Source: Holosporaceae bacterium (GTDB lineage: Bacteria > Pseudomonadota > Alphaproteobacteria > UBA3830). Taken from it: DNA of 8,629 nucleotides. Where the stretch lies: the NCBI GenBank assembly GCA_031282785.1, contig JAITDB010000041.1, positions 1 through 8,629 on the forward strand. The letters run 5' to 3'. This document shows positions 4,429-8,629 of this stretch, in pieces. The notes beneath the pieces were generated by a model, which saw nothing but the letters and a program-made list of their open reading frames with translations, searched no databases and was not told the DNA's origin. Within the stretch, counting starts at the first letter, position 1. Every line of letters starts with the position of its first letter. A program made the position numbers and the translations under genes.

Positions 4429-4458
4429 TTGATAAAATCGCATTTTTTCTGATATCAT
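4429..4458 (+). promoter_or_regulatory. Candidate sigma-70 promoter of the M16 operon
   Basis: TTGATA (4429-4434), an 18-base spacer and TATCAT (4453-4458) give a good -35/-10 pair, with expected start near 4465 and a leader of about 26 bases to the TTG start at 4491. If correct, the in-frame ATGs at 4395 and 4407 lie upstream of transcription and cannot be the start of the first M16 gene. Confidence 0.45.
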
Positions 4459-4490: not shown

Positions 4491-5807
4491 TTGAAAAAAT
4501 TTTTGTTGCTATGTGCTTTGCTGGTATCCAGCGTTTTTCATTTGGACGCCAGGTACGATCTAAGCGAATTTACCCTAAAAAACGGATTACGAGTGGTTTG
4601 TCTTAAGAGAAATTCCTCTCCGATAATATCGTTTCTGATATTATACAATTGTGGATCCATGCACGACGCTATTTCCAAGTCTGGAGTCGCGCATTATCTG
4701 GAGCACATGGCCTTCGAGTTCAACGGAGGAGAATTCAGCAAATTCCTAGAAAGCATTGGAGCCGAAACAAACGCCTACACGTCACTGCGATCTATTTGTT
4801 TCTATGAAATAATTCCCAGCGAACACATCGAAGCCGTATTTGAGCACGAGTCCATGCGCATGAAGTCCATCGACATCGACGAAAACGTATTTCTGGCGGA
4901 AAAAGGCGCGATTCTAGAGGAGCGAAACATGAGACATGACTCCAGTCCCCAGGGAGCAGCCTACGAAGCGCTCACCTCCAACGCCTTCAATAGAAGTGCC
5001 GGCGGCATAAGCGTCATCGGATGGAAATCGGAGATAAAGTCCATTCAGCCTCAGGATCTGCAAGATTTTCACGCCATTTGGTTTGCTCCCAACAACGCCA
5101 CTATTTTAATTGTCGGAGACATAGTCGATGTGAACCAAATAAAAACATTGGCGGAAAAATATTTTGGAAATCTGGAACCAAAAGAAATTCGACGAAACCA
5201 GGAAGACTCCACTCGACCTTCCTGCGTTAAGGAAATCACCTATTCATCTCCGAAAATTAGCATGGTTTCCCTTGGTTACATATACCATGTGCCTTTTTCG
5301 CATCGGCAGAATTTTAGAAAAAGCATGAGTTTGACCCTAGCGCTCAGTGTGTTGAATCAGCCGGATTCTTTTCCAAGAAAAATCCTGGAACACGATTGGA
5401 AAAAAGCCAGCAACGTAACTTTCGCATACATGGAGGGATATTTTCCCTACGACGTTGTGGAAACCGGCATAGATTCTTCCGTAAAAAACATCGCCGAGGC
5501 CGAAAAAATTTTCGCTCGTCTGATGAAGAGGCTCCTCGCCGTTGGTATAGCCAAACGCGATCTGGATACCGTAAAAAAACAGTGGGAGCTGTCGATGGCG
5601 TACAAAAAAGACGACATTGGCGACATAACCGATTACATCGCACATCTGCTGTCCCACGGATATCTGCTGGAGGAAATTCAATCCATTGACGAAACCATTC
5701 AATCCATAACCATCGACGAATGCAACGCAGTTTTGAGAGAGGTCTTTTCCGCGAATCCAGTAATAATTTCGAGAATTATGCCGAAGGAGTATAATCGTGA
5801 TCAATGA
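4491..5807 (+). CDS. Secreted M16-family zinc metallopeptidase (catalytic subunit)
   Basis: An insulinase/pitrilysin/MPP-type peptidase of 438 residues, M16B length, probably periplasmic. The Sec signal is MKKFLLLCALLVSSVFHLDA (1-20). The N-terminal M16 domain starts FTLKNGLRVV, with the inverted zinc motif H68-Y-L-E71-H72 and the distal ligand Glu144 in ILEERN, all present, so it should be active. GWKSEI (177-182), where the family usually has a G-x-x-x-x-I strand, and the GDI strand (209-211) fit the family. In the second domain the usual R-x6-Y substrate motif is not recognisable (LNQPDSFPRKILEHDW instead of a GGG-SRL...R...Y stretch). The TTG start at 4491 is chosen because AGGG (4481-4484) precedes it by 6 bases and a clean signal peptide results; ATGs at 4395 or 4407 would bury that signal. 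It overlaps the next gene by 11 bases. Substrate unknown. Confidence 0.88.
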   Translation: MKKFLLLCALLVSSVFHLDARYDLSEFTLKNGLRVVCLKRNSSPIISFLILYNCGSMHDAISKSGVAHYLEHMAFEFNGGEFSKFLESIGAETNAYTSLRSICFYEIIPSEHIEAVFEHESMRMKSIDIDENVFLAEKGAILEERNMRHDSSPQGAAYEALTSNAFNRSAGGISVIGWKSEIKSIQPQDLQDFHAIWFAPNNATILIVGDIVDVNQIKTLAEKYFGNLEPKEIRRNQEDSTRPSCVKEITYSSPKISMVSLGYIYHVPFSHRQNFRKSMSLTLALSVLNQPDSFPRKILEHDWKKASNVTFAYMEGYFPYDVVETGIDSSVKNIAEAEKIFARLMKRLLAVGIAKRDLDTVKKQWELSMAYKKDDIGDITDYIAHLLSHGYLLEEIQSIDETIQSITIDECNAVLREVFSANPVIISRIMPKEYNRDQ

Positions 5808-7170
5808 ATTAATGGCTTGTTGCCGTTTCGCAATATTTTTGGTCTGCTGTCTGGCACTTCCGCTGGCCAATTCATGCAGAGCTGCTCCCGCCAACGACGA
5901 TGGCAAAAAATACGCCCGATTATCAAATGTAAAAGATCTGAAAAGCAATCTCGGCATCAGATTTTTATTCATGCGCGACACCAGCGCGCCGTTGGTTCAT
6001 GTGTGCATATCGTTCAAGTACGCCGGATCCGCCTATCAGGAGAAAAATAAAAGCGGACTGCCAGCATTTTATGAAAAATCGGTATCCTGCGGCAGTGGAA
6101 AATATTCGCAGGTTCAATTTCAGCAGGAATTGAACAATCGAATGATCGGCATGAGCTGTTACAGCAACGAAGACGACTTTTCCTTCAGCATGACAGCACC
6201 GAAAATCGTTTTGAATGAAGCTGCAGCACTGTTCAACGTCTATCTTCAGGATCCGGTCTTCGAAAAACATAAGGTAAAATGCGCTCAGGAGAAATTATCC
6301 GCACAGCTGCAGAGCTACGCAGAAAATCCCAGCATGGCTGCCGTCAAGATGTTTCTTCCGGCGCTTATTTTCAAGTCGCATCCCTACGAAAACGGCGTTT
6401 TCGGAACCGCAGAAAATATTACGATGCTCTCCATCGACGACCTAAAAAAATATAAATCGGATTTTCTCGTGACCAGCAATGCCGAGGCCTGTATTTTTGG
6501 AGATCTGTCTGAGGAAGAAGCAAAAAATTTGCTGGACAAAATTTTTCGCAATGTTCCTCGGGGAGTTCCGGCAAAAGATTCGGTACCGGACACGGATCTG
6601 CTTCTGGAATCTGCTTCCAAAGAATATTACGCTCAGAGTCCTCAGAGTACCATCGTATTTGCTATGAAAACGATGCGGAATCATTCGCCTCAACAGTACG
6701 TGGCGACGGTGCTGTCGTTTATACTCGGTGGCGGCATGATGAAAAGCAGAATCATGGCACAGCTGCGCACCAAAGAAGGACTGATCTACTCCGGCCATAC
6801 GAGAATCGTGCACATGAACCACGCTAGTCTCATTATAGGGACTTTGAAAACAGATAACACCAATGTAAAAAAAGCCATTGAATCGCTGAAAAAAATAGTG
6901 ACTGATCTCCGGGAAAATGGCATTAGCGAAGACGATCTCGCGTTCGCAAAAAGCAATATCAGCGGTTCTATGCTGGTGTCTCTGAGGACGTCCGGAGATC
7001 TGTGTAATTTTTATTTTGCGAAAATGCAGCGAGGATTCGGAGCAGACGCTCTGAAAGAAGCTCTAAAAGGCATTAACGCCGTTACGGTCGAAGATGTAAA
7101 TACCCTCTCGAAAAAAATAATGGACGAAAATAATATGGCGTTTGTAATAATTGGTGGAAACGAACAATGA
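5797..7170 (+). CDS. Secreted M16-family non-catalytic partner with R/Y motif
   Basis: A 457-residue M16-like protein in which the zinc site is gone: where the family has HxxEH this has A90-F-Y-E93-K94, after SGLP. The C-terminal domain is well kept, with ILGGGMMKSRIMAQLR (309-324) and KEGLIYS, giving the Arg324/Tyr331 pair that in M16B heterodimers helps hold substrate in the partner's active site. It is therefore likely the non-catalytic half of a dimer with the preceding gene product. A Sec signal lies at 1-30 (hydrophobic FAIFLVCCLALPLA), with likely cleavage near CRAA/PAN; NSC does not make a good lipobox. The GTG start at 5797 has an excellent AAGGAG (5784-5789) 7 bases upstream; the start lies inside the previous gene (11-base overlap), which implies translational coupling. 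The next gene overlaps by ATGA. Confidence 0.88.
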   Translation: MINELMACCRFAIFLVCCLALPLANSCRAAPANDDGKKYARLSNVKDLKSNLGIRFLFMRDTSAPLVHVCISFKYAGSAYQEKNKSGLPAFYEKSVSCGSGKYSQVQFQQELNNRMIGMSCYSNEDDFSFSMTAPKIVLNEAAALFNVYLQDPVFEKHKVKCAQEKLSAQLQSYAENPSMAAVKMFLPALIFKSHPYENGVFGTAENITMLSIDDLKKYKSDFLVTSNAEACIFGDLSEEEAKNLLDKIFRNVPRGVPAKDSVPDTDLLLESASKEYYAQSPQSTIVFAMKTMRNHSPQQYVATVLSFILGGGMMKSRIMAQLRTKEGLIYSGHTRIVHMNHASLIIGTLKTDNTNVKKAIESLKKIVTDLRENGISEDDLAFAKSNISGSMLVSLRTSGDLCNFYFAKMQRGFGADALKEALKGINAVTVEDVNTLSKKIMDENNMAFVIIGGNEQ

Positions 7171-8423
7171 TAAAAAGAATTGTATGCCTAATACTGCTGC
7201 TACTGCTGCAAAATTCGTTCGCCAAAAATGATAATGAAAAAAAAATCAAAGAATGTGCTCTGCAGAACGGCATAAAAGTCGTGCTGCACGAGGATTTCAA
7301 GATGCCTCTGGTAATGATTGGGATTATTTTTCATGTGGGCGAAGCAGACGAGCCAACTGATAAATTTGGCATGATTGATCTAGTAAAAAAAGAATTTGTA
7401 AACTCCGAGCTCTACGATAAATTTTTCGATCTCGGCATAGAGTGTCATATGAATTCCGGTTATTTTTACACTCAGCTTCTGGCGTCCATGAATCCCAAGA
7501 GCGCGCGGGATTTTTTTGCGCATCTGAGCAAAGCGATCCCTGAAATATTTCCGGAAGATCTCGAAATATACAAGAAGCAGCTCCTGCTCGAGTACAAATT
7601 GTCCTCCTATTGCTTCAGTGACGCTTTTTCCAACAACATAGCGGCAAATGTGAGACTTTCGAACGGCAACTCACTGCCGATGTTTCAAGAAAAATCGCTG
7701 AATTCTGTTACGGAATCCGATCTAAAACTTTTTTACAAAAATAATTTCAGAGATTGTCCGATTACCGTGATTGTCAGCGGAGCCATTGGCTACAAAAGTC
7801 TTCTGAAAATATTGCACGATTCTCTGAGTAATTTGCCTCCGCGAAGAGCGCGTCCTCCGTTTTCCCTGGCGAAACACGAATATCGAGACGTCTCTTTGGA
7901 AAATAAATTCACAGGAAACTCCGTTAGCTATGCCTATGCCCTGTCTCCGGAGGATAATCTGAAATTCGGAAGTTTTTTCGATTACACATTACAGCACGAA
8001 ATAGAAAAATATTTCAACGGCATATATAAAATCGCGCATTGCAGCGTAGGAGATCTTCTGAGAAACGATCGGTGCGTAAAATTGATTAGTCTGTCGCAGA
8101 TCTCGACCATTTCTCTGGAAACATTGAACAGTATCTACCGAGCTTTTCTGAAAAAAATATCTACGTCGGGAGTCAGTTTAGAATCTCTGGAAAAAATTGC
8201 CGAAAGAAAAAGAGTCTCCGATCGCATTATTTTCGTCGATCTCGAAGATATGTGCTACGCTATGCTCTGCGAATGCCTCTGCAATAGAGATGTAAACGGC
8301 ATATATACTGCTGCCGATGATCTGAAAACAATTAATCCAAAGGAGTTTCGCTCTTTTCTGGAAAAAATTTTTCAGCAGAACGCGCTTTTTAGAATCACAA
8401 CGAAATTTAAACTGGATGAGTAA
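7167..8423 (+). CDS. Third M16-like protein, fully degenerate pseudo-peptidase
   Basis: A 418-residue exported protein with M16 architecture but no M16 chemistry. The signal peptide is MIKRIVCLILLLLLQNSFA (1-19). The first M16 strands are recognisable: ALQNGIKVVLHEDFKMPLVM (31-50) and HVGEADEPTDKFGMIDL (56-72). At the zinc site it has D71-L-V-K74-K75 in place of HxxEH. The second domain lacks the GGG-SRL and R-x6-Y motifs; the region around 269-290 reads SFFDYTLQHEIEKYFN. It keeps the M16 length and the late helix region (DDLKTINPKEFRSFLEKIF, 384-402). A structural or regulatory subunit of an M16 complex is the likeliest role, by inference only. The ATG at 7167 overlaps the preceding TGA (ATGA) and follows GGTGGA. 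The intact frame and tight coupling argue against a decaying gene. Confidence 0.8.
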   Translation: MIKRIVCLILLLLLQNSFAKNDNEKKIKECALQNGIKVVLHEDFKMPLVMIGIIFHVGEADEPTDKFGMIDLVKKEFVNSELYDKFFDLGIECHMNSGYFYTQLLASMNPKSARDFFAHLSKAIPEIFPEDLEIYKKQLLLEYKLSSYCFSDAFSNNIAANVRLSNGNSLPMFQEKSLNSVTESDLKLFYKNNFRDCPITVIVSGAIGYKSLLKILHDSLSNLPPRRARPPFSLAKHEYRDVSLENKFTGNSVSYAYALSPEDNLKFGSFFDYTLQHEIEKYFNGIYKIAHCSVGDLLRNDRCVKLISLSQISTISLETLNSIYRAFLKKISTSGVSLESLEKIAERKRVSDRIIFVDLEDMCYAMLCECLCNRDVNGIYTAADDLKTINPKEFRSFLEKIFQQNALFRITTKFKLDE

Positions 8424-8425
8424 TG

Positions 8426-8629
8426 ATGAAACATAAAAAGCTAAAAATAATTACGTCCATTGCGGTAATTGCGTTGGTATCGATTCCTATTTTTTTAAAA
8501 GACGAAAAGCAATCTCTGGAGCTCGTAACTGTTGGCAACGACATGGACATAAAAACATCTCTGGTGTACATAAACAGCGAAGACGTGATATACATAAAAT
8601 GCAAATTCAAAAATGCCGGAGTCCGCTGC
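8426..8629 (+). CDS. Fourth gene of the M16 operon, N-terminal fragment, membrane-anchored, probably M16-like
   Basis: Open frame running off the right edge, 68 residues visible. Lys-rich MKHKKLK is followed by a hydrophobic stretch (about 8-24, IITSIAVIALVSIPIFL) without a clear cleavage site, so it looks like a signal anchor or inner-membrane tether. The following SLVYINSEDVIYIKCKFKNAGV lines up with the first M16 strands of the neighbours (compare LFMRDTSAPLVHVCISFKYAG in the second gene). It may be a fourth M16-like subunit; the alignment is short, so this is tentative. ATGs at 8423 and 8426 are both in frame; GGATGAG (8414-8420) suits 8426 better. The start lies at or against the stop of the third gene, so it is co-translated with it. 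Confidence 0.7.
   Translation, partial: MKHKKLKIITSIAVIALVSIPIFLKDEKQSLELVTVGNDMDIKTSLVYINSEDVIYIKCKFKNAGVRC

Follow-up and report, generated by a model that had tools for sequence, protein, structure and literature searches.

M16 peptidases are two-half chambers, and a locus with more than two M16 halves in a row raises the question of what the additional halves do. Here the question is posed by an 8,629-nucleotide stretch of DNA (the window), which is the entire contig JAITDB010000041.1 (G000:C73) of the draft genome of a Holosporaceae bacterium (GCA_031282785.1; 0.82 Mb, 85% complete) and which carries three overlapping genes for M16-like proteins (genes 1 to 3) followed by the 5′ part of a fourth (gene 4). 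The answer that we put first, giving it about an even chance, is that the cassette encodes two likely M16B heterodimers: a predicted active zinc peptidase made of the gene 1 and gene 2 products, and a predicted dead, membrane-anchored clamshell made of the gene 3 and gene 4 products that likely arose by duplication of the pair. In the accessible text of PMC12731061, prokaryotic M16B enzymes are homodimers, heterodimers or fused halves.

M16 membership, motifs and N-termini of the four chains

All four chains are M16 proteins (pitrilysin/mitochondrial processing peptidase [MPP] fold). Genes 1 and 2 exceed the curated cut-offs for Pfam PF00675 (Peptidase_M16)/PF05193 (Peptidase_M16_C), and the window's genes 1, 2 and 3 score 702, 701 and 555 bits, respectively, against their own profiles. 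The sub-threshold Pfam score of gene 3 had suggested that it might lie outside M16, a candidate ruled out by profile, by PDB profile search and by fold: its AlphaFold model (pLDDT 89.8, pTM 0.86) is a complete M16 half. The gene 4 fragment of the window scores 77.9 bits across positions 1–69 of the gene 4 profile. In relatives the longest gene 4 frames span 417–485 aa (one of 403 aa ends at a contig end), and these full-length sequences ruled out a non-M16 protein; the model of the orthologue at locus L035 (pLDDT 85.9) is again a complete M16 half. Both gene 3 and gene 4 match M16 structures in PDB searches. By sequence, genes 1 and 2 are thus classed as an M16B pair and genes 3 and 4 as M16-fold pseudopeptidases.

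The catalytic and substrate-binding marks are divided among the chains. The H, E and H residues and the distal Glu, the HXXEH-E pattern of M16 tabulated in the accessible part of PMC12731061, stand at the aligned columns in 27/27 gene 1 sequences and in the zinc chains of all six ordinary M16 pairs. HxxEH occurs in none of 28 gene 3 sequences, none of 24 gene 4 sequences and none of 11 copies of a further M16-like gene (gene 5, below). The R and Y of the R-x6-Y pair are both present at the aligned columns in 28/28 gene 2 sequences and in the partner chains of the six ordinary pairs. In gene 4, R is found in 15/24, Y in 11/24 and both in 8/24, so that R/Y loss is no longer claimed for gene 4 as a whole; the copies keeping both residues have a loop one residue shorter, and the pair is incomplete in gene 4 of L035 and L036, the window's closest relatives. 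Two gene 3 sequences contain LRx6Y matches (frame positions 185 and 363), which we count as chance. Genes 1 and 2 therefore carry the sequence marks of a predicted active M16B heterodimer, with the zinc ligands on the former and R/Y on the latter. Genes 3 and 4 are set apart from active M16B enzymes, with no HxxEH on either chain and the R/Y pair in only those eight gene 4 copies.

The N-termini, which were assessed by hydropathy and a simple count of the cleavage motif, also differ among the chains. A small-x-small motif lies close to where the uncharged N-terminal run ends in 26/27 gene 1, 27/28 gene 2 and 27/28 gene 3 sequences, as compared with 6/24 for gene 4, and two or more K/R residues immediately follow the run in 21/24 gene 4 sequences versus 2, 3 and 4 sequences of genes 1, 2 and 3. 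A hydrophobic N-terminal run is present in 23/24 gene 4 copies, the 24th (L068) being cut by its contig end; four single M16 proteins of the MPP type have no such N-terminus. A-x-A sits inside the gene 4 helix in 4/24 copies, and a statement that it is absent from the gene 4 N-terminus was softened. Judged by these features, the N-termini of genes 1 to 3 are signal-peptide-like and that of gene 4 is anchor-like, and gene 4 is predicted to be anchored in the inner membrane.

A preliminary description of the window, made from the letters alone, had recognized three consecutive exported M16-like proteins, and genes 1 to 3 are indeed consecutive, overlapping and M16, with export-type N-termini by sequence. 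Its assignment of the zinc motif and distal Glu to gene 1 alone agrees with the orthologues, as does its statement that gene 3 keeps neither motif. Its restriction of R-x6-Y to gene 2 is borne out for gene 2 itself and has to be relaxed for gene 4, where relatives can retain both residues. Among the roles that it had proposed for the added subunits, membrane tethering is made plausible by the anchor-like N-terminal helix of gene 4.

Conservation, descent and pairing

The window's family comprises 40 genomes, in which genes were counted by strong profile scores. Gene 1 is present in 32 (two in pieces), genes 2 and 3 in 33 each, and gene 4 in 31, a count that takes in the window fragment and a lone contig-end copy in G016; none of the four was found in G011, G013, G015, G018, G050 or G051. 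Among the 33 genomes with gene 3, gene 4 is found in 30 and adjoins gene 3 in 28. The longest frames of genes 1 and 2 overlap in 27/27 loci and those of genes 2 and 3 in 28/28, while between those of genes 3 and 4 the spacing ranges from −4 to +2 nt in 21/21. The tight or overlapping frames of genes 1 to 4 make coupled translation across the cassette likely. The cassette is collinear yet stands in several different neighbourhoods, and the conserved gene order and frames ruled out a chance arrangement. The three- or four-member set is thus conserved as a unit, with genes 3 and 4 linked to the pair and both within M16, and the preliminary suggestion that the truncated fourth gene probably joins the set has proved sound: it is a full-length M16 gene in relatives, in most of them placed directly behind gene 3. 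One genome, G009, holds two cassettes of different type, L036 (G009:C91) and L046 (G009:C69), one with four genes and the other with genes 1 to 3 ending 388 bases from the contig end; a second organism in G009 is possible because the genome contamination is 4%.

Outside the family, no strong gene 3 was found in nine other genomes of the order. Five of these (G024, G026, G027, G029 and G030, from three families) carry an ordinary HxxEH plus R/Y pair, beside which G030 has a second, fragmentary M16 set, and the remaining four gave one weak gene 1 match apiece; gene 4 was scored here on fetched loci only. Among 289 genomes of the class, drawn evenly from a larger group, the gene 3 profile (E ≤ 1e-15) matched only G000, G012 and the canonical zinc chain of G071 (71 bits). 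The gene 4 profile matched G012 (512 bits) and gave six uninspected partial matches of 110–127 bits at E ≤ 1e-30, a cut-off that the window's own fragment does not reach. PF05193 had four or more matches in at least 18 of 190 class genomes, two of them from the window's family; in the other 16, checked by coordinates with the DNA of four read, no four M16 genes stood in a row and one tandem triple was found. This survey gives a lower bound, because PF05193 would miss genes like gene 3 and only genomes with at least four matches were checked. Finally, a search of ∼5.8 billion protein sequences, with ∼8,000 candidates scored for each gene, returned at least 17 strong gene 3 clusters (one being the window's own) and at least 39 strong gene 4 clusters. 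The named clusters are labeled Holosporaceae, "Alphaproteobacteria bacterium" or generic peptidase/hypothetical, and one is a muramoyltetrapeptide carboxypeptidase with extra domains.

Several methods agree on the descent of the additional chains. In hhalign comparisons the highest scores join gene 3 to gene 1 (165) and gene 4 to gene 2 (159), followed by genes 1 and 2 (117), 3 and 4 (87), 4 and 1 (61), and 3 and 2 (58). Against the Sphingomonas enzyme, the gene 3 profile matches the "active subunit" 3amj_C (8.7e-10) and does not match 3amj_B at E ≤ 0.01; the gene 4 profile matches the "inactive subunit" 3amj_B at 2.4e-10 and 3amj_C at 3e-4. In a maximum-likelihood tree of 57 rows, gene 4 groups with gene 2 and the ordinary R/Y (beta) chains (support 96/89), and genes 3, 5 and 1 group with the ordinary zinc (alpha) chains on the opposite side (99/98). 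Every gene forms a single clade with support of 100. This careful tree omits 15 of the 72 rows of a quick tree (L051, L053, L058, L066 and L075), partly because of long branches and partly to save computing time, and the quick tree shows the same alpha/beta split; frames shorter than 370 aa were excluded from every tree. Genes 1 and 2 are closest in the trees to the ordinary pair of G071. Collectively, these comparisons make it likely that gene 3 descends from a zinc chain and gene 4 from an R/Y chain, the pair having been duplicated and the copy having decayed. A recent duplication within the family, with genes 1 and 3 or genes 2 and 4 as sisters, was set aside: the tree places genes 3 and 4 deeper, though the approximately unbiased (AU) test does not reject these sister placements (P = 0.30 and 0.37).

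Observations on gene 5 and on the flanks of ordinary pairs touch the same history. Gene 5, which has a signal-peptide-like N-terminus, occurs at G000:C72:7096-8415 (L054), L061–L067 and L077–L079, matches R-x3-G-x2-Y in none of its 11 copies and is of zinc-chain type in the tree. It precedes a gene that we take to be pgi-like, and in 10/11 cases it follows one that is presumably lspA-like. Within the family of the window, what stands at the lspA site is in most cases this one motif-less M16 gene, the pair lying elsewhere with genes 3 and 4. Perhaps gene 5 is a decayed remnant that marks where the pair stood ancestrally. At L120 (G226:C4, 2507-7558) an ordinary pair has an extra frame between its chains and is followed by a gene that we take to be xseA-like; a gene of the same type follows gene 3 in L039, L041 and L042. 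This neighbor hints at the ancestral neighbourhood.

All four genes are under constraint, and their rates are correlated. The ratio of nonsynonymous to synonymous substitution rates (dN/dS) is 0.05–0.34 in 26/26 pairwise comparisons. Across 21 complete cassettes the distance correlations, computed from pairwise distances that are not mutually independent, are high for all genes (0.89–0.96). With the other two genes removed, the partial correlations are 0.65 for genes 3 and 4, 0.47 for 1 and 2, 0.42 for 2 and 4, 0.27 for 1 and 3, 0.22 for 1 and 4, and −0.12 for 2 and 3. The split 12|34 was best in 993/1,000 subsamples of 14 of the 21 loci. It was also best in 959/1,000 subsamples with ClpP alone as control and in 977/1,000 with ClpP plus the other two genes, these subsamples taking 12 of the 17 loci with a fetched ClpP. 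Gene 3 evolves fastest of the four, with a mean patristic distance of 2.02 compared with 1.27–1.59. Rate co-evolution thus favors a 1:2 pair and a distinct 3:4 pair over extra subunits on one clamshell.

Readings of the cassette

In the explanation that we favor, the gene 1 and gene 2 products would together form the usual closed chamber and cleave periplasmic peptides, and the gene 3 chain, of zinc-chain descent, would pair with the gene 4 chain, of R/Y-chain descent. The dead 3:4 shell would bind the same class of peptides without cleaving them, and the gene 4 helix would hold both these peptides and the live enzyme to the inner membrane, allowing capture and then hand-over. The likely use would be processing or salvage of peptides that enter the periplasm of a small-genome bacterium. 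A bolder form of this idea, which we hold tentatively, is that all four chains might constitute a single inner-membrane-anchored M16 machine, born of duplication of a whole pair, in which peptides caught by the dead clamshell are delivered to the live one. Such a machine would be a bacterial counterpart of the MPP chains that became core subunits of a membrane complex.

Several observations weigh against pairing of genes 3 and 4 in a dead shell derived from the duplicated pair. Both R and Y persist in one-third of the gene 4 copies. The 3:4 pairing may not be obligate, because gene 4 has not been found so far in G008, G017 and G023, which carry genes 1 to 3, and is unlinked to gene 3 in G005 and G012. 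MPP-beta chains, which are of the zinc-chain type, outrank 3amj_B as matches to gene 4 (1.4e-12), so that the PDB list alone cannot settle its type. The AU test, because the branches are long, leaves alternative placements, namely gene 3 with gene 4 (P = 0.37), gene 3 on the beta side (P = 0.15) and gene 4 on the alpha side (P = 0.26); since moving gene 3 or gene 4 is not rejected, the case for duplication rests on agreement between methods. With ClpP alone as control, the six correlations all fall within 0.84–0.92 and differ little. In addition, correlated rates and co-inheritance can arise under a common constraint on chains that never touch, and fast evolution of both genes 3 and 4 may be all that underlies their correlation.

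The alpha-like character of gene 3 and the beta-like character of gene 4 would make partner exchange possible, such that gene 3 competes with gene 1 for gene 2, gene 4 competes with gene 2 for gene 1, and there is a single enzyme for which the pseudo-chains serve as brakes or decoys. Gene 3 without a found gene 4 in three genomes would suit such mixed clamshells, but the corresponding partial correlations are low (−0.12 for genes 2 and 3, 0.22 for genes 1 and 4) and the split 14|23 was best in only 2/1,000 subsamples, and we regard mixing as unlikely. We would give a similarly small share to the view that genes 3 and 4 merely share an operon and otherwise work by themselves or with different partners, perhaps as envelope proteins that bind substrate or resemble chaperones. 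In G005 and G012, gene 4 does sit by itself at a separate locus, and in G016 no member of the set besides gene 4, at a contig end, was found; against this, gene 4 directly follows gene 3 in 28/30 genomes having both, across differing flanks, and the rate correlation of the two is the strongest of all pairs. That genes 3 and 4 are functionless, decaying relics of the duplicated pair seems very improbable: the loss of motifs and the fast evolution of gene 3 would accord with decay, whereas full-length, open and overlapping frames persist family-deep, dN/dS does not exceed 0.34 in any of the 26 comparisons and the models of both chains are well folded. The reading of a live 1:2 enzyme beside a dead 3:4 shell is the one that we carry forward to known systems.

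Window features and comparison with known systems

The cassette features of the window are collected below.

Table 1. Features of the M16 cassette and its upstream region (window positions)
Feature	Position	Strand	Remarks
Sigma-70-like site	4429..4458	+	10/12 matches; end 32 nt upstream of gene 1
Gene 1, M16B zinc-bearing (alpha-type) chain	4491..5807	+	TTG start; 438 aa; signal-peptide-like N-terminus
HYLEH zinc/catalytic motif of gene 1	4692..4706	+	Sequence reading; invariant in 19/19, then 27/27 orthologues
Distal Glu zinc ligand of gene 1	4920..4922	+	E144 in alignment numbering; invariant in 27/27
Gene 2, M16B R/Y-bearing (beta-type) chain	5797..7170	+	GTG start; signal-peptide-like N-terminus; 11-nt overlap with gene 1
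R-x6-Y substrate-binding pair of gene 2	6766..6789	+	R and Y in 28/28 orthologues
Gene 3, alpha-type pseudo-M16	7167..8423	+	Signal-peptide-like N-terminus; without zinc motif and R/Y; 4-nt overlap with gene 2 (ATGA)
Gene 4, beta-type pseudo-M16, 5′ part	8423..8629	+	ATG at 8423 or 8426; contig ends after 69 aa; predicted membrane-anchored
Predicted N-terminal membrane-anchor helix of gene 4	8447..8497	+	Hydropathy across gene 4 orthologues

Sigma-70-like sites are no more frequent than chance in the region (six, compared with a shuffle mean of 8.1). Upstream of the cassette lie tRNA-Leu, trigger factor, ClpP and a divergent glycosyltransferase, and the window also holds a gene that we take to be HU-like. 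The C-terminal tail of trigger factor is repetitive, with a 42-base tandem repeat in three copies and then a lysine-rich end (2320-2444). Its true start lies downstream of 805, because the longest frame, which begins there, crosses the tRNA-Leu gene (809-893). In other loci (L040, L043, L063, L075, L084 and L085) a presumably TolC-like gene lies near the cassette or gene 5, in some of them beside genes that we take to be PopZ-like and gltX-like; in L063 all three are near gene 5.

Literature searches turned up no four-gene M16 set in titles and abstract openings, and the accessible main text of PMC11909080 and PMC9992710 contains no match to the terms peptidase, protease or insulinase. The closest described relative, the SPH2681/SPH2682 M16B heterodimer of Sphingomonas sp. 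A1 (PDB 3ami, 3amj), has two chains, and the accessible part of PMC12731061 mentions neither a motif-less second pair nor a membrane-anchored chain for it. The same part of that source describes AlbE/AlbF, TTHA1264/TTHA1265 and FusC/PqqL as M16B pairs or fused pairs with two halves per enzyme, none of them four-chain. YmfF/YmfH, placed here by the titles of matching PDB entries and a listing of papers, is likewise a bacterial M16B pair or fused pair with two halves. The ordinary alphaproteobacterial pair of G071 (L076, beside lspA) resembles genes 1 and 2 in having a zinc chain and then an R/Y chain, but stays a pair. L118 (G146:C315, 2898-7110), in another alphaproteobacterial family, also exceeds the pair, with a tandem R/Y–zinc–R/Y (beta-alpha-beta) triple. 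That triple differs in that its zinc chain has HxxEH, both beta-like chains match R-x6-Y, its gene 3 and gene 4 profile scores are low and it contains no decayed second pair.

The nearest parallel to the additional chains is found in mitochondria. MPP and the bc1 core proteins are likewise M16B chains, some of them without the zinc motif and within a membrane complex, and the motif-less bc1 core proteins are thought to be structural (PMC12731061, accessible part). Unlike these, genes 3 and 4 would derive from a bacterial pair, they are seen in one family only and there is no sign here of an association with a respiratory complex. In the cassette a whole pair has seemingly been duplicated, and the copy, free of catalysis yet under selection, keeps in step with the live pair across a small-genome family. 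The concrete prediction is a 3:4 shell anchored through gene 4, and the cassette would thus offer a bacterial test system for the role of inactive M16 chains, a question also open for the bc1 core proteins.

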